Source: Parabacteroides distasonis (lineage in GTDB: Bacteria; Bacteroidota; Bacteroidia; Bacteroidales; Tannerellaceae). From it: a stretch of DNA of 37,859 bases. Shown in pieces: positions 585 to 24,523 of this stretch. The notes under the pieces were generated by a model, which worked only from the letters and a program-made list of their open reading frames with translations, was not told the DNA's origin and made no database searches. How positions within the stretch are numbered: the first letter of the stretch is position 1; each line of letters starts with the position of its first letter. A program made the position numbers and the translations under genes. The DNA is taken from assembly GCF_004793765.1 (NCBI RefSeq), contig NZ_SRYM01000042.1, positions 1-37,859 on the forward strand, in the 5' to 3' direction.

Positions 585-644
585 ATGATGAACAACGTAT
601 TGCATATTATTCTCGTGGTGGTCCTTCTAGTCATTAGTAGGTAA
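585..644 (+). CDS. ilv operon leader peptide
   Basis: A 19-residue peptide, MMNNVLHIILVVVLLVISR, in which 12 residues are Ile, Leu or Val. It has two adjacent ATG codons at 585 and 588 and a TAA at 642-644. The stop lies directly against the antiterminator strand at 645. This is the arrangement of a ribosome-mediated attenuation leader: when charged Ile, Val or Leu tRNA is scarce, the ribosome stalls in the run of codons at 606-635. The peptide itself probably has no function beyond being translated. Confidence 0.88.
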   Translation: MMNNVLHIILVVVLLVISR

Positions 645-721
645 GGAGAAAGGTGTGCAAGAAGTCGTGAAGTCGTGAAGATATTTCTTAAGCCTTTCTC
701 CATATAGGGAAAGGCTTTTTT
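622..721 (+). promoter_or_regulatory. ilv transcription attenuator with competing hairpins
   Basis: Three mutually exclusive pairings can be read. Strand 2, GGAGAAAGG at 645-653, is exactly complementary to CCTTTCTCC at 693-701, giving a 9-bp antiterminator. Strand 3 (690-700) pairs instead with 707-717 to form the terminator. A pause or protector hairpin is possible between TCCTT at 622-626 and AAGGA at 643-647, extended by CTA (627-629) with TAG (638-640). A ribosome finishing the leader covers 645-653 and favours termination; a ribosome stalled upstream leaves it free for antitermination. The role in BCAA control follows from known attenuators; it is not measured here. Confidence 0.85.
690..721 (+). 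terminator. Attenuator terminator before ilvD
   Basis: An 11-bp stem (AAGCCTTTCTC at 690-700 with 707-717, one U-G pair) has a CATATA loop, followed by six T (716-721). It lies 63 bp before ilvD, so it acts inside the operon leader rather than at a gene end. Confidence 0.88.
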
Positions 722-784
722 GGTATAAATAAATTAAGGTGGAGGTGTGGGTAAAGCACCCCGCGAATAAAAAACAGGAAAGAG

Positions 785-14105: not shown

Positions 14106-17100
14106 ATGAACGTAAATCATATAAAACAATTATTCGTAGCCCTCTTCCTGCTGTTATCAGCGGGAACGGCTACCGCCGCCCAGTGGATGTTGAAGAAGAC
14201 GGACTTGAACGCCGCGGGTAGCAAGGACACGCTTGTCTTGGGCGTGTATGGTAATTCCTTTGGTTTCTCTTCTTTCCAAGTGGATTTCACCTTGCCGGAA
14301 GGGGTCTTGCCGGATGGTGCGCCTATTTTGGGCGATGTCGCGATCGACCATGCGCTTACGTGGAAACAGGAGAATGGCAGCTACCGTTGCGTAGTCTATA
14401 GCCCGAAGAACACGGAAATGAAAACCCCGGAGGGAGGCCTGCTTTACCTTCCCGTGGAATTGGCCGCTTCTTTTAAAATGGGTACTTTCACGGCTAAGAA
14501 CGGTCTCTTGTCCAATAAGAAGTCCGAGGGACAAACGGTACCGGATATGACCGCTACCTTGAAATCGTATAAAGAGAAGGCAGATTTGGTGGTGAACGTA
14601 TCGGGCTTGGAAAAGGTGATGGCGGATCTGAACGGAAACCCCGCCGAGCTAAGCTATACGACCGTACCGGAAGGCAAGGAATTGACGGTCGCTTACTACA
14701 CGGACGATGCTTGTACGGAAGCGGCTACTGACGCTGATCGCACGAAAGAGGGCATTCTGTATGTAAAACTCTCCTATGCGGGTGATGAGGATTATAACGC
14801 TTTCGAGAAGGTCTATGTCATGAGTTTGACCAGCAAGAAGGCGATTGCGACGAGTGGAATCATTGCGCCTGAGGCCACCTCGATCAAGGAAGGACAATTA
14901 CTTTCCGCTTCCTTGCTGTCTGGCGGTAGCGTTACGGATGAAGGTTATACCGTAGTCGGTAAGTTCGCTTGGACGGATGGAAGTATCGTGGTTCCGGCTG
15001 GTGAAAAAGCATATTCTGTTACTTTTTATCCTGATAATTCCTCTTATTATGCTACGGCATCGGTTTCCGTGCCGGTAGCGGTAACCAAGACTTATACGAT
15101 TACCGCCGTGGCGTCTACCGGTGGTGTGGTGAATGTGTTGGGTAAGACGGAGGATAATAAATATGTAGAAGGACAGACTGTCTCTTTGAAAGCGATCCCG
15201 CTGCCTAACTATCAGTTTGACGGTTGGTCGGTGACAGGCTCGAGCGAGACGTTGACCACTGGTGATTCTATCGCTGTCATGGTAGATACAGACAAGACTT
15301 ACACCGCCAACTTCTCACCGATTATGCACACGTTGTCAATCGCTGTGGAAGGAAATGGTAGCCTGTCGGTTACGGCAGAAGGGAATGAGGTGACCAACGG
15401 CGTTTCCCTACAGCAGGGGACGGTCTTGCAGATCCTCGCGACTCCCGACATGAACGCTCAGTTGAAGGAATTGACTATAAATGGCGACTCGCTCAAGGGG
15501 GATAAGGTTACGCTAACGAAAGCCTTGGAGATCCGGGCTGCGTTCGAGGCGAAACCCGTGGAGATGGCACTTGTCAACATCCGGCAGACGGCTCACGGCT
15601 CTATCTTATTATATAAGGAAGACGGATCGCCGATCGCTTCCGGCTCTACCGTGCGGAAAAACTCGAAGGTACGGGTGATCGCGCTTCCGGACGCCGGGTA
15701 TCAGTTGGAGGGTAACGTGGCCTTGTCGAACGTATCGGGTGGTACGGACGATCTGTATACCGTGAATGGTGATATCACGGCAACCGCCTCTTTCACGGAG
15801 AAAAAGTATAAGGTGGCCGCTTCTGCCGTGAGCAGCAACCCGGGTGAGACGACTGCCGCCGGCAAGATCACCTTGGATAAGGTAGGCGAGCAGCCGTATG
15901 GCACGGAGGTACGTATCCTAGATGTCGAGGGACAAGACGGAGCACGCTTGCTTACGATCTTGGCGAATGGTAAGGAAGTTGCCCAGAATGAGGTCTTGAC
16001 TGTGACCGGCGATTTGACAGTAACGGCCGTATTCGATCATCGGGTGGCGATCAAGAAGGAATATATCATGTGGCCTTACCAAGAATATTACTACAATGGT
16101 GTGTCTCGTAATTTCGTGCCTTTCGCTTCCCAAACCTATGCGGGCTTCTCGTTCGAGGTATTATATAAGGACTCGGAAGAGAATGTGACCAAGAAGGCGA
16201 TCGATGCGGATCATTATACCGTCTTGTTGCATCGTGATGAGGATGGCCTGTACAAAGAGTTCAACGAGACCTATGAGGATGGCTTGGTCATCAAGAAGTC
16301 TAAAATTGCGGTGACACAGGTACTTGACGGTGCCGAGGGCTTGAAGACACGTCCAGGCAGGGATGAGGTGGAAGTAGAGATTGACCCGTCCTATCCTGAT
16401 GCCGATGTGACAAAATATGTGATTTCTCCTAAGAGTACTTCTGCTAAGAAGAACTACGAAGGTACGGTTTATTACCATTCAACGAAACCGGCGAAGCCAT
16501 TGAACTTTGGTGCATCTGTCTTGCGTTCGGGTGGAGAGCCAAACGGCTATGTACGCATCACCAACGGCGGTATGCCGTATGTGGCAGAGAATGGCGTGGT
16601 GTCTGTTCCCGAAGGGGTAACGGTACTATTGGAGGCCGTGCCTGCTGCGGGGTATAAATTCTCTAAGTGGGCTGATGGTAATATGGAGAACCCGAGAGAA
16701 TACAAGGTGACTGCCGATGCGACAGGTCTCACGCCCGAATTTGTCGGCAAGCCCGAGGCCTCTTTCGCCTTGGCGAGAAACATCTCCGCTTACAATGGTG
16801 TGGCGCAGACTGTATCTGTAACGGGTGAGGGTAACGAGCAGTGCCAGATCACCTTCTTCTTCGATCGAGCATGTACACAACCGGCTATCTTGAAAAATGC
16901 CGGTACGTATTACGTCCGTGTATACCGTCTAGAGGATGATGTCTATCAAGCGTATGAGAAGACCTTTGAATACACAATTGAGCAGGCTGACGCAAAGGTG
17001 GTATGGCCTACCGCATCCGCTATCTTGTCCGGGCATGCGTTGGCAGAGTCTGTCTTACAAGGTGGCCACGCCGGTATCGTTGCCGGAACGTTCGCTTGGA

Positions 17101-17528
17101 ATGATCCGGAAGTCGTGATGACGGCCGGGGGCGACAAAGAAGTGATCTTCACGCCGACTGATCCGAACTATAAGCCGCAGAGTTCTCAGGTGAAAGTAAC
17201 GGTTGTTTCCTCTGTTTCCTCCTCTACGGATCCCGAGAATCCGGTGACTCCGGTTGATCCGGTTGATCCGGAGAATCCAGAAGGGCCGGACACGCCGACT
17301 GGCGTAGAATCCATTGAGGAAGACGCTGTTTTGTATGCCGCGAATCTTTCTATTTTAGCGAATATGCCTAAGTCGGTTACGCTGACGGTGATTGATGTGG
17401 CCGGTATTATCGTTTATAAGGAAACGGTAGCGGGCGAGGTGATGATACCCGTAAGCCATGCGGGAGTCTACTTTGTTCGTTGCGAGGCCGCCAGCGAGGT
17501 GTTCGTGAAGAAGATCGTAGTTCATTGA
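14106..17528 (+). CDS. Giant secreted protein with cohesin-like and InlB-like repeats
   Basis: 1140 residues, 3 bp after the previous stop, so probably co-transcribed. Signal peptide about 1-24, ending TATAA. Residues 26-145 (SFQVDFTLPEGVL, then YRCVVYSPKNTEM) resemble the cohesin-like sandwich of Bacteroidetes surface proteins. InlB-type repeats with WSVTGSS and YTANFSP lie about 325-490 and 505-650, with another near 805-885. A module with FAWTDGS recurs later with FAWNDPE, showing internal duplication. A Pro/Asp/Glu linker (about 1040-1062) leads to a C-terminal beta domain that resembles type IX sorting tails or the DUF6383 kind, without the YPNPF motif. Surface location is inferred; function unknown. 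Confidence 0.78.
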   Translation: MNVNHIKQLFVALFLLLSAGTATAAQWMLKKTDLNAAGSKDTLVLGVYGNSFGFSSFQVDFTLPEGVLPDGAPILGDVAIDHALTWKQENGSYRCVVYSPKNTEMKTPEGGLLYLPVELAASFKMGTFTAKNGLLSNKKSEGQTVPDMTATLKSYKEKADLVVNVSGLEKVMADLNGNPAELSYTTVPEGKELTVAYYTDDACTEAATDADRTKEGILYVKLSYAGDEDYNAFEKVYVMSLTSKKAIATSGIIAPEATSIKEGQLLSASLLSGGSVTDEGYTVVGKFAWTDGSIVVPAGEKAYSVTFYPDNSSYYATASVSVPVAVTKTYTITAVASTGGVVNVLGKTEDNKYVEGQTVSLKAIPLPNYQFDGWSVTGSSETLTTGDSIAVMVDTDKTYTANFSPIMHTLSIAVEGNGSLSVTAEGNEVTNGVSLQQGTVLQILATPDMNAQLKELTINGDSLKGDKVTLTKALEIRAAFEAKPVEMALVNIRQTAHGSILLYKEDGSPIASGSTVRKNSKVRVIALPDAGYQLEGNVALSNVSGGTDDLYTVNGDITATASFTEKKYKVAASAVSSNPGETTAAGKITLDKVGEQPYGTEVRILDVEGQDGARLLTILANGKEVAQNEVLTVTGDLTVTAVFDHRVAIKKEYIMWPYQEYYYNGVSRNFVPFASQTYAGFSFEVLYKDSEENVTKKAIDADHYTVLLHRDEDGLYKEFNETYEDGLVIKKSKIAVTQVLDGAEGLKTRPGRDEVEVEIDPSYPDADVTKYVISPKSTSAKKNYEGTVYYHSTKPAKPLNFGASVLRSGGEPNGYVRITNGGMPYVAENGVVSVPEGVTVLLEAVPAAGYKFSKWADGNMENPREYKVTADATGLTPEFVGKPEASFALARNISAYNGVAQTVSVTGEGNEQCQITFFFDRACTQPAILKNAGTYYVRVYRLEDDVYQAYEKTFEYTIEQADAKVVWPTASAILSGHALAESVLQGGHAGIVAGTFAWNDPEVVMTAGGDKEVIFTPTDPNYKPQSSQVKVTVVSSVSSSTDPENPVTPVDPVDPENPEGPDTPTGVESIEEDAVLYAANLSILANMPKSVTLTVIDVAGIIVYKETVAGEVMIPVSHAGVYFVRCEAASEVFVKKIVVH

Positions 17529-17536
17529 TATCCTCG

Positions 17537-17614
17537 ATGCCCATCGTAATATGACTACAATGGGCATTGTAAACATTTTATACTGCCCATCGTAACAACC
17601 TAACGATGGGCAGT
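17537..17614 (+). terminator. Two tandem hairpins after the secreted-protein pair
   Basis: The first stem pairs 17537-17544 with 17560-17567 (ATGCCCAT/ATGGGCAT). The second pairs 17582-17593 with 17603-17614 as 12 perfect bp (ACTGCCCATCGT). The two share the sequence GCCCATCGTAA. The second lacks a strong T tract, so it is only a moderate terminator by sequence; position at the operon end supports the role. Confidence 0.6.
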
Positions 17615-17686
17615 GTTATTTCGTAAGGCATATGGTTGTTTGGCTTATAGTTTGTAATAAATAATGGATAAAAACTTCGAATTATA

Positions 17687-17717
17687 TTTGGTGGTATCAA
17701 AAAAGGCCGTATCTTTG
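17687..17717 (+). promoter_or_regulatory. leu operon promoter
   Basis: TTTG at 17687-17690 and TATCTTTG at 17710-17717, spaced exactly 19 bp, match the Bacteroidales consensus in full. Transcription would start near 17723, about 29 nt before the leader-peptide ATG. Confidence 0.85.
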
Positions 17718-17751
17718 CAACGTTGAAACAAAAACAATAAAGACAAGAACA

Positions 17752-17826
17752 ATGACACGCAACTTGCAAAATAGTCTCATTATTTCTCTAAACATTATTC
17801 TACTCTGGGAACGGGATAGGAAGTGA
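17752..17826 (+). CDS. leu operon leader peptide
   Basis: 24 residues ending at TGA 17824-17826. The middle part, LIISLNIILL (residues 9-18), has eight Leu or Ile codons among ten, with no valine, fitting an operon that makes leucine and, through CimA, isoleucine. The last codons (AGG AAG TGA) overlap the antiterminator strand, so a ribosome that completes the peptide hides it. The preceding AATAAAGACAA (17736-17746) also occurs before the ilv leader start. Confidence 0.87.
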   Translation: MTRNLQNSLIISLNIILLWERDRK

Positions 17827-17897
17827 GACTGTATGCTTTGCGAGCATTACGATAGATGAAAGAGCCTTTCTCACTTCCTTGTGAGAGAGGCTTTTTT
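17773..17897 (+). promoter_or_regulatory. leu transcription attenuator with 1:2, 2:3 and 3:4 pairings
   Basis: Strand 1, AGTCTCA (17773-17779, inside the leader codons), is complementary to strand 2, TGAGACT (17824-17830). Strand 2 extended, AGGAAGTGAGA (17818-17828), is perfectly complementary over 11 bp to strand 3, TCTCACTTCCT (17869-17879), giving the antiterminator. Strand 3 can instead form the terminator with 17881-17892. All three competing structures of a classical amino-acid attenuator are therefore visible. Stalling at the Leu/Ile codons should free strand 2 and allow read-through into leuA. Confidence 0.87.
17861..17897 (+). terminator. Attenuator terminator before leuA
   Basis: GCCTTTCTCAC (17864-17874) pairs with GTGAGAGAGGC (17881-17891), 11 bp with one U-G pair, loop TTCCTT, then six T (17892-17897). 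It is 39 bp before leuA. Confidence 0.9.
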
Positions 17898-17936
17898 AGT
17901 TAGTATAGGATATTAGTAAATTAAGAATATAAGATT

Positions 17937-19439
17937 ATGTCAGACAGATTATTTATTTTCGACACCACCTTACGTGATGGTGAACAGGTTCCGGGATGCC
18001 AGTTGAATACAGTGGAAAAGATTCAAGTAGCCAAGGCGTTGGAACAGCTCGGCGTAGACGTGATCGAGGCGGGTTTCCCCGTATCCAGCCCGGGGGATTT
18101 TAAGAGTGTGGTTGAGATCTCAAAGGCCGTGACTTGGCCGACCATCTGTGCCTTGACCCGTGCGGTGGAGAAAGATATCGACGTGGCTGCCGAGGCGTTG
18201 AAATTCGCTAAGCGGGGACGTATCCATACGGGTATCGGTACTTCGGATTCTCATATCAAATACAAGTTTAACTCCACGCGGGAGGAGATCATAGAGCGTG
18301 CGATCGCCGCCACGAAATACGCTAAGAAGTACGTGGAGGACGTAGAGTTCTATTGTGAGGATGCCGGGCGTACGGATAATGAATATCTGGCCCGTGTCGT
18401 AGAGGCCGTGATCAAGGCCGGGGCTACCGTGGTGAATATACCGGATACGACGGGATATTGCTTGCCGGATGAGTACGGGGCGAAGATCAAGTATCTGATG
18501 GAACATGTGGATGGCGTACATAACGCTATTCTTTCCACCCATTGCCATAATGACTTGGGCATGGCTACCGCGAACACCGTACAAGGCGTGTTGAACGGAG
18601 CCCGTCAGGTGGAGGTAACCGTAAACGGTATCGGTGAGCGTGCGGGTAACACGTCATTGGAAGAAGTCGCCATGGTTTTCAAGAGCCATAAAGAACGTGA
18701 TATTATTACCAATATCACGACGAATAAGATCTATAGTACGAGCCGTATGGTTTCTAGCTTGATGAATATGCCGGTACAACCGAATAAAGCTATTGTCGGA
18801 CGTAACGCATTCGCTCACTCCTCCGGTATCCACCAAGATGGCGTTTTGAAGAATGCGCAAACCTACGAGATCATCGATCCGAAGGATGTGGGTATCGATG
18901 ATAACGCGATCGTATTGACTGCTCGTAGCGGTCGTGCGGCGTTGAAGCATCGCCTGCATGTTTTAGGTGTGGATCTGGAGCAGGAGAAATTGGACAAGGT
19001 GTACGATGAGTTCTTGAAACTGGCCGATCGTAAGAAAGATATTAATGATGATGATGTTTTGATGTTGGTCGGAAAGGATCGTACGGCCACCCACCGTATT
19101 AAATTGGAATATTTACAGGTAACTAGTGGTGTTGGAGTACAATCAGTCGCAAGTATTTGTTTAAATTTGTCGGGAGTAAGAAGATATGAGGCCGCGGCTG
19201 GTAACGGTCCGGTTGACGCAGGCATCAAGGCGGTGAAAAAAGCCATTAGTAATAGTGACATGACGATTCAGGAATTCTTGATTCAAGCCATTAATAAAGG
19301 TAGCGATGATACGGGCAAGGTGCATATGCAGGTAGAGTATAACGGGGCTACCTATTATGGGTTCTCCGCAAATACCGATATTATCGCCGCTTCCGTGGAG
19401 GCTTTCGTGGACGCCATCAATAAGTTTATAGTAGACTAA
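17937..19439 (+). CDS. leuA: 2-isopropylmalate synthase
   Basis: Condenses acetyl-CoA with 2-oxoisovalerate, the committed step of leucine synthesis. 500 residues, full length, with the DRE-TIM barrel motif [13 protein letters not shown] at residues 8-20, the metal ligands HCHND (about 202-206), [14 protein letters not shown], and a C-terminal LeuA regulatory domain (about 370-500) that normally binds leucine. Numbering matches E. coli LeuA: His97 and Asn167 are kept, but Ser139 of the 2-oxoacid pocket is Tyr here ([10 protein letters not shown]). First gene of the leu operon and under its attenuator; leuC starts 14 bp downstream. Confidence 0.94.
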
Positions 19440-19453
19440 AAATAGACAAGACA

Positions 19454-20851
19454 ATGAGCAAGACATTATTTGAGAAAATCTGGGACAAACACGTGGTGGA
19501 CACGTTGCCCGACGGAACCATACAATTGTATATCGACCGTCTGTATTGTCATGAGGTGACTAGCCCGCAGGCTTTCGCCGGATTACGTGCACGTGGATTG
19601 AAGCCCTTCCGTCCCGCACAAATCACTTGTATGCCGGACCACAATATCCCGACATTGAACCAAGATAAGCCTATCGAGGACCCTATATCCAAGAATCAAG
19701 TGGATACCTTGGAAGAGAATGCGAAGTATTTCGGCTTGACGTATTACGGTCTTCAACATCCGAAGAATGGTATCATCCATGTGGTAGGTCCGGAGACAGG
19801 CTTGACGCAGCCGGGTATGACGATCGTTTGTGGCGACTCCCATACTTCTACGCACGGTGCCATGGGTGCTATCGCCTTCGGTATCGGTACGAGCGAGGTG
19901 GAGATGACCTTGGCTACCCAATGTATCATGCAGCGTAAGCCGAAAACGATGCGTATCACGATCGATGGTGTACGCAAACCGGGCGTTACGGCGAAGGACT
20001 TTGCCTTATACATTATTAGTAAGATGAGTACCAGCGGTGCTACGGGCTATTTCGTGGAGTACGCCGGCGAGGCGATCCGTAATACGACCATGGAGGAACG
20101 TCTGACGATCTGCAATCTTTCGATCGAGATGGGTGCCCGTGGTGGTATGATCGCTCCGGACGATGTTACTTTCGATTATTTGAAAGACCGTGAGTTCGCC
20201 CCAAGAGGCGAGGAATGGGAGCGGAAGGTGAGCGAGTGGCGTCAGTTATATAGTGATCCGGACGCTAAGTTCGATAAGGAGATCGTTTTCCACGCCGAGG
20301 ATATCGACCCGATGGTTACGTACGGTACGAACCCGGGCATGGGTATGAGTATCAGCAAAGATATCCCCTCCTTAGAAAGCGTGCCCGAGGCAGGCCGTAT
20401 CTCTTATAAGAAGTCTTTGGATTATATGGGCTTCAAGGCAGGCGAGTCTATGTTGGGTAAGAAAGTGGATTATGTCTTTTTAGGTAGCTGTACGAATGGC
20501 CGTATCGAGGATTTCCGTGCTTTCGCCTCTTTGGTGAAAGGAAAGAAGAAAGCGGATGATGTAACGGTTTGGCTGGTTCCCGGCAGTTGGCAGGTAGAGC
20601 GGGAGATTCGTGCCGAGGGGATCGACAAGGTTTTGGCTGAGGCCGGCTTCGTCCTTCGTCAACCGGGATGTTCCGCTTGTCTGGCGATGAATGAGGATAA
20701 GGTTCCGGCAGGTAAATATGCGGTCTCCACTTCCAACCGTAATTTCGAAGGCCGCCAAGGACCGGGTGCCCGCACTATCTTGGCGGGGCCGCTTGTGGCC
20801 GCCGCCGCTGCCGTGACCGGTAAGATCACAGACCCGAGAGAACTGATGTAA
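19454..20851 (+). CDS. leuC: 3-isopropylmalate dehydratase large subunit
   Basis: Aconitase-family enzyme that isomerises 2- to 3-isopropylmalate; in this setting it probably also handles citramalate from CimA. 465 residues, the normal bacterial length. [20 protein letters not shown] (about 129-148) is the family signature. The [4Fe-4S] ligands are Cys in GSCTNGR (about 346) and the two in PGCSACLA (about 406-409). [12 protein letters not shown] near the C-terminus is substrate-binding. Works as a heterodimer with LeuD, encoded 26 bp downstream. Confidence 0.96.
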
Positions 20852-20877: not shown

Positions 20878-21465
20878 ATGAAAACAAAATTCAATATAAT
20901 CACAAGCATGTGTGTGCCTCTTCCCTTAGAGAACGTGGATACCGACCAGATTATCCCAGCTCGCTTTCTGAAAGCGACTACCAAAGAAGGGTTCGGCGAG
21001 AACTTATTCCGGGATTGGCGATATGATAAGGAAGGTAATAAGATCGAATCATTCGTCTTGAACGATCCTACGTATAGCGGAAAGATATTGGTAGCGGGAA
21101 AGAACTTCGGTTCCGGTTCCAGCCGTGAGCATGCGGCTTGGGCGATAGCCGATTACGGTTTCCGTGTCGTGGTCTCCAGTTTCTTCGCCGATATCCATAA
21201 AAACAACGAGTTGAACAACTTCGTGCTGCCGGTTGTTGTGACTGAAGAGTTCCTCGCTGAATTGTTCGATTCGATTTACAAGGACCCGAAAACTGAGGTC
21301 GAGGTAAATCTACCGGAGCAAACGATCACGAACAAGGCTACGGGCAAAAGCGAGCATTTCGAGATCAACGCCTATAAAAAGGATTGCCTGATCAACGGAT
21401 TGGACGATATCGACTATTTACTGGCAAATAAATCAAAGATAGAAGCCTTCGAGGCAGCACGCTGA
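20878..21465 (+). CDS. leuD: 3-isopropylmalate dehydratase small subunit
   Basis: Small, swivelling-domain partner of LeuC. 195 residues, usual length. [20 protein letters not shown] (about 21-40) and [16 protein letters not shown] (about 75-90) are the family signatures; the second contacts the substrate. The stop is followed after 2 bp by the ATG of cimA, indicating tight co-translation. Confidence 0.96.
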
Positions 21466-21467
21466 TT

Positions 21468-22982
21468 ATGATAGAAATAATGGATACAACCCTCAGAGAT
21501 GGGGAGCAAACTTCGGGCGTCTCCTTCGCCGCTCACGAGAAGCTTAGCATAGCGCAAGTGCTGCTGAGCGACTTAGGCGTGAACCGGGTGGAGATCGCCT
21601 CCGCCCGTGTGTCGGACGGAGAGTTTGAGGCCGTGAAGCGTGTAGCCGCTTGGGCCGCCCGTTCCGGAAACCTAGACAAATTGGAGGTCTTGGGTTTCGT
21701 GGATGGTACGGTCTCTCTCGACTGGATTGAATCCGCAGGTTGCCGTGTCGTGAACTTGCTTTGCAAGGGCTCTTATAAGCATGTCACCGAACAGCTCCGT
21801 AAGACTCCCGAGCAACACGTTGACGATATTCGTACGGTCGTATTGGAAGCGGAGAGACGGAAGATCGACGTGAATATCTATCTGGAGGACTGGTCGAACG
21901 GTATCAAGCATTCCCCGGATTACGTGTTCTTGGTGATCGATGCGTTGAAAGGACTTCCGATCTGCCGTTTCATGCTCCCGGATACCTTGGGCGTCTTGAA
22001 TCCCGGGAATACTTACGAGTATTGCAAGATGATGGTAGACCGCTACCCGGATTTAAGGTTCGACTTCCATGCGCATAACGACTATGATCTTGCCGTCGCG
22101 AATGTATATTCCGCCATCCGCGCGGGTATCAAGGGAATCCATACGACCGTGAACGGCTTGGGAGAGCGTGCGGGCAACGCTCCTTTGAGCAGCGTACTTG
22201 CCGTTATCAAGGACCAGTTGGGAGAGGAGACGAACTTGAGGGAGGAAAAGATAAACAAGGCGAGCCGTTTGGTCGAGACCTATTCCGGGGTACATATCCC
22301 GCCCAATAAGCCGATCATCGGAGAGCATGTGTTTACGCAGTGCGCCGGTGTCCATGCGGACGGTGATAGCAAGAATAACCTGTATTGCAACGACCTGCTT
22401 CCTGAACGTTTCGGACGGGTTCGCGAGTACGCCTTGGGCAAGACCTCCGGAAAAGCGAATATCCGCAAGAATCTGGAAGCGCTCGGTATCGACATGGACG
22501 AGGGTTCGATGCGTAAGGTTACGGAACGGATCATTGAGTTAGGGGATAAGAAAGAAATGGTTACCCCGGAGGATCTTCCTTATATTATCAGCGATGTGCT
22601 TCATCATGATAATGCGCTGGAGGATCAGAAAATACGGATCTTGAACTATTCCTTATCCTTGGCCCAAGGGTTGAAGCCGGTGGCTACCTTGAAGATCGAG
22701 ATCAATGGCGAGGCTTACGAGGAATCGGCTTCCGGTGATGGACAATACGACGCTTTCGTTCGTGCCCTACGCCGGATTTATTCCCGTTTGAACCGCCCGT
22801 TCCCGATGTTGACGAACTATTCGGTATCCATCCCGCCGGGAGGACGTACGGATGCGTTCGTGCAGACGGTCATCAGCTGGAATTATGCCGGGGTCGATTT
22901 CAAGACTCGTGGTCTGGACGCTGATCAGACCGAGGCGGCGATCAAGGCGACATTGAAGATGCTGAACAAGATAGAGGATTAA
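21468..22982 (+). CDS. cimA: Citramalate synthase (LeuA-related)
   Basis: 504-residue LeuA-family enzyme, [15 protein letters not shown] at the start and a C-terminal regulatory domain (about 375-504). It is far closer to Leptospira CimA than to LeuA: EIASARVS, LGFVDG, NIYLEDWSNG and FTQCAGVHADGD are all shared as I recall that sequence. The pyruvate-pocket residues known from the Leptospira structure (Leu81, Leu104, Tyr144) align with Leu75, Leu98 and Tyr138 here. It would condense pyruvate and acetyl-CoA to citramalate, which LeuCD and LeuB turn into 2-oxobutyrate, a threonine-independent isoleucine route. The neighbours are exactly those enzymes. Specificity is inferred. Confidence 0.82.
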   Translation: MIEIMDTTLRDGEQTSGVSFAAHEKLSIAQVLLSDLGVNRVEIASARVSDGEFEAVKRVAAWAARSGNLDKLEVLGFVDGTVSLDWIESAGCRVVNLLCKGSYKHVTEQLRKTPEQHVDDIRTVVLEAERRKIDVNIYLEDWSNGIKHSPDYVFLVIDALKGLPICRFMLPDTLGVLNPGNTYEYCKMMVDRYPDLRFDFHAHNDYDLAVANVYSAIRAGIKGIHTTVNGLGERAGNAPLSSVLAVIKDQLGEETNLREEKINKASRLVETYSGVHIPPNKPIIGEHVFTQCAGVHADGDSKNNLYCNDLLPERFGRVREYALGKTSGKANIRKNLEALGIDMDEGSMRKVTERIIELGDKKEMVTPEDLPYIISDVLHHDNALEDQKIRILNYSLSLAQGLKPVATLKIEINGEAYEESASGDGQYDAFVRALRRIYSRLNRPFPMLTNYSVSIPPGGRTDAFVQTVISWNYAGVDFKTRGLDADQTEAAIKATLKMLNKIED

Positions 22983-23461: not shown

Positions 23462-24523
23462 ATGAAACTGAATATAGCAGTACTTCCCGGAGACGGGATC
23501 GGACCAGAGATTTCCGTGCAAGGCGTGGAAGTAATGAGTGCCGTTTGTGAGAAATTTGGACATGAGGTTCACTATGAGTATGCCCTTTGTGGCGCTGACG
23601 CGATCGATAAGGTAGGCGATCCTTTCCCGGAGGAGACCTATCGGATTTGTAAGGATGCCGACGCTGTTCTTTTCTCGGCTGTGGGCGATCCTAAGTTTGA
23701 TAATGATCCGACAGCGAAAGTACGCCCGGAGCAAGGTCTTTTGGCGATGCGTAAGAAGTTGGGCCTGTTCGCTAATATCCGTCCGGTGCAGACCTTCAAA
23801 TGCCTATTGCATAAATCGCCGTTGCGTGCCGAATTGGTGGATGGCGCGGATTTCTTATGTATCCGTGAGTTGACCGGTGGTATGTATTTCGGTGAGAAAT
23901 ATCAAGACAACGATAAGGCATACGATACGAATATGTATACCCGCCCGGAAATCGAGCGTATCTTGAAAGTGGGCTTCGAGTATGCGATGAAACGGAATAA
24001 GCACCTGACGGTTGTTGACAAGGCGAACGTACTTGCCTCTTCCCGTCTATGGCGCCAGATCGCTCAAGAGATGGCTCCTAGCTATCCGGAAGTAACGACA
24101 GACTATATGTATGTGGACAACGCCGCTATGCGTATGATCCAAGAGCCGAAATTCTTCGACGTGATGGTAACCGAGAATACGTTTGGTGATATCTTGACGG
24201 ATGAGGGTTCTTGCATCAGCGGCTCTATGGGCTTGCTGCCTTCCGCTTCAACCGGAGAGAGCACACCGGTTTTCGAGCCGATTCATGGCTCTTGGCCGCA
24301 GGCGAAAGGGCTGAATATTGCGAACCCCTTGGCGCAAATTCTTTCAGTAGCGATGTTATTCGAGTATTTCGACCTCAAAGAAGAGGGAGCCTTGATCCGT
24401 GAAGCCGTAGACGCTTCCCTCGACGCGAATGTCCGTACGCCGGAAATCCAAGTGGAAGGTGGAGCGAAATATGGAACGAAAGAAGTGGGTAGTTGGATTG
24501 TCAATTATATCATGGAAAAGTAG
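23462..24523 (+). CDS. leuB: 3-isopropylmalate dehydrogenase
   Basis: NAD-dependent oxidative decarboxylation of 3-isopropylmalate, and probably of 3-methylmalate on the CimA route. 353 residues, normal length. [10 protein letters not shown] (about 8-17), the substrate segment with three Arg ([21 protein letters not shown]), ELTGGMYFG, the catalytic Lys in TVVDKANVL (about 185), and the metal-binding DNAAMRMI / GDILTDE region are all visible. GSAPD-type nucleotide motif appears as [12 protein letters not shown]. Last gene of the leu operon; a long hairpin follows. Confidence 0.95.

Follow-up and report, generated by a model that had tools for sequence, protein, structure and literature searches.

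The window analyzed here is the whole stretch of 37,859 nucleotides from a contig of Parabacteroides distasonis. It carries an ilv operon (ilvD, ilvB, ilvN, and ilvC) and, downstream of it, a leu operon with the following genes:

17937..19439, plus strand: leuA, 2-isopropylmalate synthase (NF002086, 725.9 bits, above the cut-off)
19454..20851, plus strand: leuC (TIGR00170, 619.8 bits, above the cut-off)
20878..21465, plus strand: leuD (TIGR00171, 190.5 bits, above the cut-off)
21468..22982, plus strand: a cimA-like gene, probable citramalate synthase (best family NF042433, 635.5 of 950 bits, below the cut-off)
23462..24523, plus strand: leuB (TIGR00169, 426.1 bits, above the cut-off)

The gene preceding this operon (14106-17528) is followed by a long inverted repeat, ATACTGCCCATCGT...ACGATGGGCAGTGT (17580-17616), which is nearly the same in locus L003 and is perhaps the terminator of that gene. 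Farther downstream, 39 nt 5' of leuA, lies what appears from direct reading to be a complete ribosome-mediated attenuator, with a promoter motif, a leader open reading frame (ORF), and a terminator:

17710..17717, plus strand: Bacteroidota-type promoter -7 element TATCTTTG (TAnnTTTG), by direct reading
17752..17826, plus strand: leader ORF MTRNLQNSLIISLNIILLWERDRK, ATG at 17752, 24 codons, TGA at 17824-17826, by direct reading
17773..17779, plus strand: segment 1 of the initial annotation, AGTCTCA, partner 17824-17830, by direct reading and folding
17792..17826, plus strand: widespread control-codon hairpin, 17792-17806 with 17813-17826, predicted to sequester segment 2, by consensus fold
17794..17805, plus strand: main control codons ATT ATT CTA CTC (Ile-Ile-Leu-Leu), by codon statistics, spacing, and masked folding
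17818..17828, plus strand: segment 2, the anti-terminator 5' arm AGGAAGTGAGA, overlapping the leader stop, by direct reading and covariation
17858..17897, plus strand: intrinsic terminator with a 17-bp stem, its 3' arm continuing into a T tract, by folding and consensus fold
17869..17879, plus strand: segment 3, TCTCACTTCCT, whose partner is either segment 2 or the terminator 3' arm, by direct reading and covariation

The initial annotation had read this region as an attenuator rich in Leu and Ile, with three competing pairings. The peptide LIISLNIILL, which has Leu and Ile without Val, is indeed part of MTRNLQNSLIISLNIILLWERDRK, and two of the pairings are exact: AGTCTCA at 17773-17779 is complementary to TGAGACT at 17824-17830, and AGGAAGTGAGA (17818-17828) is perfectly complementary over 11 bp to TCTCACTTCCT (17869-17879), a match equalled in none of 60 mononucleotide shuffles of the leader. 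The terminator also folds, with a stem of 17 bp, and is somewhat longer than first proposed, extending over 17858-17897 instead of 17864-17891. The annotation had further set this leader apart from that of the ilv operon; reading of the latter (585-644) agrees, since the ilv leader carries Val codons and the leu leader none.

The folded transcript has a minimum free energy of -53.6 kcal/mol, compared with -31.3 ± 4.05 kcal/mol for its shuffles (z = -5.5, with none of 200 as good). This is mostly due to the terminator, since positions 17723-17880 folded without the terminator 3' arm reach a z of only -1.6, with 11 of 200 shuffles as good. The terminator at 17858-17897 is absent from the list returned by a simple consensus terminator scan of the window, probably because its stem runs into the T tract. 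We considered whether the element is merely the ordinary terminator of the gene at 14106-17528 accompanied by a short ORF arising by chance, given that this gene ends only about 180 nt 5' of the promoter motif and that simple terminator scans return many chance sites. We rejected this explanation, to which we attach almost no likelihood, because the gene already has a separate stable inverted repeat behind it and because the element has its own promoter motif and precedes leuA in most of the loci examined below.

The initial annotation had also taken the operon to serve isoleucine by way of CimA. Among PDB structures, the best match of the cimA-like gene product is 3ble, the citramalate synthase of Leptospira (390.5 bits), followed by a homocitrate synthase (190.1 bits); the best isopropylmalate synthase match reaches 147.2 bits. 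The C-terminal domain of biosynthetic threonine dehydratase (PF00585) was not found in this genome; it turned up in 5 of 14 control genomes but not in the control Bacteroides. The structure match and the absent PF00585 thus make it plausible, if not proven, that isoleucine is made through citramalate in this genome; the annotation as CimA gains from both and is weakened by a score of 635.5 bits, short of the 950 bits that the NCBIfam CimA model requires.

To place the element among relatives, we compared the window with the best 80 of at least 594 confirmed LeuA loci in genome contigs, giving 81 sources in all. The titles of these 80 loci name Bacteroidales genera or families, including the genera Parabacteroides, Bacteroides, Phocaeicola, Prevotella, and Segatella, or unnamed Bacteroidetes or Bacteroidia bacteria, and the closest among the loci listed is from Parabacteroides, with 94% LeuA identity. 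The element lies 5' of leuA in 65 of the 80 best-listed loci, 62 of them identified by script and 3 by eye. The script used a motif-anchored search, which took over from a scoring of the best terminator in the 450 nt upstream that had chosen other hairpins in several loci, the window included. It recovered 63 of the 81 sources (the 62 loci plus the window); its pattern passed over L021, L044, and L056, which were picked out by eye. Two loci, L008 and L027, have too little upstream DNA, and the element is absent 5' of leuA in 13 (L015, L017, L022, L028, L029, L032, L042, L046, L048, and L077-L080). Some of the contigs without it, for example L042 and L077-L080, are titled Prevotella, Prevotellaceae, or Paramuribaculum; in these, the attenuator must have been lost or moved.

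Alignment A1 comprises 64 sequences, including the window, after the duplicates L007 and L038 were dropped. L006 and L007 are two inverted leuA loci on one contig (JAJDIA010000049.1); their leaders are the same and their upstream DNA matches close by, which reflects either a duplication or an assembly artifact. From A1 we built a covariance model, R1, which returned no match at E up to 1 in the 13 lacking loci and in L008 and L027. R1 matches 64 of 198 Bacteroidales genomes under strict filters, with which weak matches are lost. Among the 77 of these genomes with a full-length leuA, 40 have a match at most 500 nt 5' of it, and 37 have none directly upstream at E 0.001 and the same filters. In six genomes (L103, L104, and L108-L111), the match lies 4.8-7.6 kb 5' of leuA, and the attenuator precedes ilvD; the best family for that gene is dihydroxy-acid dehydratase in all six, the proteins being partial. 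At the level of the phylum, R1 matches 37 of 296 genomes, 3 of them from Bacteroidales itself, and in a genome of another order of the same class the leader MTNYTNIIIAIISIIAIQQ stands before ilvA (threonine ammonia-lyase, 631 bits, above the cut-off). Three weak genome matches (27-29 bits; C111, C137, and C104) were rejected on reading as chance. The motif TAnnTTTG, which we take to be the Bacteroidota -7 promoter consensus, occurs within 75 nt 5' of the leader ATG in 57 of the 59 loci counted, compared with 2.8 expected from shuffles. Shine-Dalgarno-like 4-mers precede only 2 of the 59 leader starts.

The composition of the leaders points to the amino acids that would be sensed. Over the 64 sequences, Ile and Leu together make up 36.3% of leader residues, versus 18.4% and 7.3% in the other frames, and every one of the 64 leaders contains both, each with at least 6 in total. 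The two are about equally frequent (17.9% Ile and 18.5% Leu); Val accounts for 3.3% of residues and occurs in 31 of the 64 leaders. The leader therefore reads as a short ORF with clustered codons for the end product of the pathway, as would be required of an attenuator. Codon choice is also unusual: the rare CTA supplies 95 of the 286 leader Leu codons (33.2%), compared with 19 of 2,057 (0.9%) in leuA of the same loci and 3.3% of Leu codons in the genes of the window itself. Likewise, ATT makes up 79.4% of leader Ile codons versus 38.3%, a bias to which hairpin pairing could contribute.

The position of these codons is constrained as well. In the window, the last Leu control codon begins 16 nt 5' of GGAAGTGAG, and in 46 of 63 rows GGAAG follows the first base of the final clustered Ile or Leu codon at a distance of 15-16 nt. 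The stop codon falls between -3 and +24 nt of the start of the core in 62 of the 63 rows, counts that retain two rows in which the script misplaced the core (L052 and L047) and three in which it is doubtful (L035, L036, and L060). When two duplicates and three rows with a poor core match are removed, the spacing is 15-16 nt in 43 of 58 loci, compared with a mean of 4.5 and a maximum of 11 over 1,000 rounds of shuffled codon order; rows with fewer than 7 core pairs were excluded both here and from the set of 53 loci folded below. GGAAGTGAG itself occurs in all three reading frames relative to the leader (36, 20, and 7 of 63 rows, a few with a doubtful core), and therefore RNA rather than peptide is conserved there. 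The sequence, conservation, covariation, codon bias, and spacing of the element are direct observations.

Both arms of the proposed switch covary among related genomes, a check that the initial annotation had itself suggested, by shuffles that ignore the relatedness of the sequences. For the anti-terminator (segments 2 and 3), 91.4% of cells in A1 are paired, 5 of 9 pairs are changed on both sides, and there are 13 double-change cells versus 2.5 in these shuffles, such as U-A to C-G in 7 sequences. For the terminator, 86.7% of cells are paired over the 64 sequences, with 48 double-change cells versus 14.7, again with relatedness ignored. Terminator and anti-terminator thus appear, from the alignment, to be mutually exclusive structures conserved with compensatory change.

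The structure upstream of them differs from the one first proposed. The 7-bp helix between segments 1 and 2 is present in the window, but among the loci it is confined to some Parabacteroides relatives: an equivalent of 17773-17779/17824-17830 with at least 7 contiguous bp occurs in 5 of the 9 sequences grouped as Parabacteroides (the window, L003, L009, L010, and L011). As a general feature, a contiguous helix of this kind was rejected, reaching p < 0.05 against mononucleotide shuffles in only 6 of 60 rows, a set that includes two duplicates. The alignment indicates that the widespread upstream structure is instead the hairpin holding the control codons (17792-17806/17813-17826). In it, 80.9% of cells are paired, and 76 are changed on both sides versus 35.1 in shuffles that ignore relatedness; on two of five measures, the counts of changed pairs (7) and of further pair types (28), it does not outdo the shuffles. 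Slid versions of all three structures score lower both in cells paired and in covariation score. For segment 2, the mean predicted probability of being held by the leader is 0.77-0.82, depending on the frame group, versus 0.44-0.56 in shuffled leaders, and it is through the hairpin recurring in the consensus folds that it is held more than expected. In Prevotella-like leaders (e.g., L050, L055, L062, and L067), a control codon changes from CTA (Leu) to CGA (Arg). In 9 sequences the G of CGA is part of a G-C pair at A1 column pair 75:96, where in 11 sequences a U stands opposite a C, unpaired; this hints, suggestively only, that RNA structure has outweighed one control codon in these leaders.

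Such strongly conserved structure, with GGAAGTGAG and CCTTTCTCACTTCC nearly fixed, could also be expected if an aptamer or a protein (a riboswitch, a T-box, or an RNA-binding regulator) sensed the amino acid and the ORF were incidental. We find this extremely unlikely. No Rfam 15 family reaches its gathering threshold in the window, the enterobacterial leu leader, the T-box, and the amino-acid riboswitches included, and the T-box and riboswitch were rejected on this ground. At E up to 1, the region 17650-17950 gives three weak matches, all far below their cut-offs and none to the enterobacterial leu leader. In addition, the two competing helices explain the conserved nucleotides, and conservation follows the codons and the position of the stop.

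We then modeled how a ribosome on the leader would affect folding. From 61 distinct loci, 53 were chosen for canonical geometry (spacing of 12-19 nt and a good core), and the RNA transcribed through segment 3 was folded with the ribosome footprint masked, its edge taken to lie at P-site +15. When the ribosome sits on the last control codon, the probability of the anti-terminator exceeds 0.5 in 53 of the 53 selected loci; with the ribosome on the stop codon, it does so in none. Without a ribosome, 18 of the 53 exceed this value, so that the state without translation is not uniform. In the window, the probability is at least 0.99 with the A site at codons 5-19, 0.63 at codon 20, and 0.05 at codon 21, which places the switch between codons 19 and 21; it is 0.04 without a ribosome. 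According to these simulations, the control codons are placed so that a stalled ribosome would free, and a terminating ribosome would cover, the anti-terminator arm. When the full-length RNA is folded to equilibrium, most loci favor the terminator despite a stalled ribosome; the anti-terminator then has a probability of 0.0 in the window and a median of 0.001 over the 53. The mechanism must therefore be kinetic, with the anti-terminator formed before segment 4 is made.

These results support the initial reading of Leu- and Ile-sensing attenuation, which we state as a prediction drawn from the leader, its rare codons and spacing, the covarying helices, the position before leuACD, the cimA-like gene, and leuB, and the simulated folding. 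The element is very probably a classical ribosome-mediated transcription attenuator that senses charged tRNA-Leu and tRNA-Ile. When Leu and Ile are plentiful, the ribosome would reach the stop codon at 17824, overlapping and masking segment 2, so that segments 3 and 4 would form the terminator and transcription would end near 17897. With too little Leu-tRNA or Ile-tRNA, it would instead stall in ATT ATT CTA CTC, with its front edge halting just short of segment 2 and the control-codon hairpin broken; segment 2 would then pair with segment 3, no terminator would form, and leuACD-cimA-leuB would be transcribed. With no ribosome, the leader hairpin would hold segment 2 and, in the window, the terminator would form. 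Stalling, read-through, the response to each amino acid, transcription of the operon, and kinetic trapping of the anti-terminator are steps that we infer.

A regulated terminator could also respond to general translation arrest or slow initiation on the leader, the Ile/Leu run being a by-product of constraint on RNA structure. Part of that run (ATTATTCTA) does double as the 5' arm of the conserved hairpin, and in the window the anti-terminator results when the leader is masked as far as nearly any of codons 4-19. Yet CTA is equally enriched 5' of the hairpin arm, where it supplies 53 of 146 Leu codons (36.3%), Ile and Leu are enriched in the leader frame, the last Leu codon keeps a tight position, and the his, trp, and phe leaders of the same genome carry HHHHH, WWW, and FTYYFYYFYF, each matching its pathway. 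We therefore regard general arrest as very unlikely to be the signal and favor sensing of charged tRNA.

These other leaders of the same genome are each followed by a terminator-like hairpin: on the minus strand of L086, MKITTALHHHHHYSGQ before hisG (TIGR00070); on the minus strand of L085, MRTFVVNTYWWWRSVQLKRS before trpB (TIGR00263, 585.7 bits, above the cut-off); and on the minus strand of L090, MNRFSFTYYFYYFYFSGVRAGVCM 5' of the prephenate dehydratase gene pheA (PF00800). R1 scores 22.8 bits at the trp leader, which is not significant, and no Thr/Ile-rich leader was seen in the region read upstream of thrA. R1 does find the ilv leader of the window, and the two attenuators of the window are therefore related or alike in form. 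In some relatives, attenuators form tandem pairs in which both members have an Ile/Val/Leu leader and a terminator-like hairpin of their own; this occurs in 5 of 198 Bacteroidales and 3 of 296 phylum genomes (L112 included), and such attenuators could act as gates in series:

585..722 of the window, plus strand: attenuator resembling that of leu, before ilvD, comprising the leader MMNNVLHIILVVVLLVISR (585-644) and a terminator (R1, 44.1 bits, E 5.9e-8 in the window)
L103, 649-945; L104, 522-866; and L107, minus strand: tandem attenuators before ilvD
L106, minus strand, and L114, minus strand: tandem attenuators before ilvE
L105, 552-842: tandem attenuators before ilvB
L113, 453-714: tandem attenuators before an ilvN-like gene
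L112, minus strand, 1091-1494: a possible series of three attenuators before ilvE

Two of the L112 leaders (MKTNSNIIIISIIIRSFE and MKTNMNIIIISIIIRSFE) are nearly identical, suggesting duplication; the third match scores lower (26.1 bits), and where it begins the leader lacks an ATG. On balance, we lean toward the view that Bacteroidota run much of their amino-acid biosynthesis through ribosome-mediated attenuators diversified from one architecture (leu, ilv, his, trp, and phe here, with tandem and perhaps triple ilv arrays in relatives), those of leu lacking a Shine-Dalgarno-like start. If so, the lead ribosome in this phylum would trail RNA polymerase at a distance short enough for it to govern termination. 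The leu element would then serve as an either/or sensor for Leu and Ile, in keeping with an operon that makes leucine and citramalate-derived isoleucine.

Attenuation has been raised before in this phylum. In Flavobacterium psychrophilum, "strong clues" were reported for leader-peptide attenuation 5' of amino-acid biosynthesis operons (PMC9723704); this is the same phylum and the same suggested mechanism, although the portion of that report available to us names no leu element, no covariation, and no Bacteroidales. In Bacteroides thetaiotaomicron, of the same order, short ORFs in long 5' untranslated regions were called "reminiscent of leader peptides" and attenuation was raised as a possibility, but the example given in the available text is BT_4401, not leu, and no mechanism is given there (PMC7366714). 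The principle is thus old, and its presence in the phylum had, as far as the accessible parts of these two papers go, already been suggested. A 2010 study states, in the part available, that leader-peptide systems were to its authors' knowledge unknown outside Proteobacteria and Actinobacteria, barring the atypical leader of ermC and a Firmicutes example of their own (PMC2965389). Leader-gene distances have been given for Bacteroidetes, with no leu or ilv case in the accessible text (PMC4833913), and a study of his genes in the phylum mentions attenuation once in its available part, as general his regulation, without a leader (PMC8305728). The attenuator of Corynebacterium ilvBNC, with its upstream ORF, is likewise a branched-chain amino-acid leader, in a different phylum and before different genes, as described in the accessible portions of two reports (PMC10272879, PMC11857589).

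We found no description of a Bacteroidales leu attenuator in the open-access literature searched. A comparative survey of attenuators by Lopatovskaya et al. (2010) may include Bacteroidetes. The leu element is ordinary in principle, its mechanism being that of the textbook, but it is solid and useful, and the leu family is without an earlier description in the literature searched. Its value lies in the precise RNA family, which has no match in Rfam 15 and is expected to govern the synthesis of leucine and isoleucine in many Bacteroidales of the gut. Because attenuation needs the first ribosome to pace RNA polymerase, the element is also a ready-made reporter of transcription-translation coupling. 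Bacteroidota start translation mostly without Shine-Dalgarno sequences, and such a reporter is of interest in a phylum with this mode of initiation.

The closest known counterpart is the enterobacterial leu operon leader (leuL), which is presumably what Rfam lists as leu_leader (RF00512). Unlike leuL, the window element has no Rfam match, Ile is about as frequent as Leu in the Bacteroidales leaders, and Shine-Dalgarno-like 4-mers are nearly absent from their starts. Like leuL, the element combines a Leu-rich leader, rare CUA codons, mutually exclusive helices, and an intrinsic terminator 5' of leuA.
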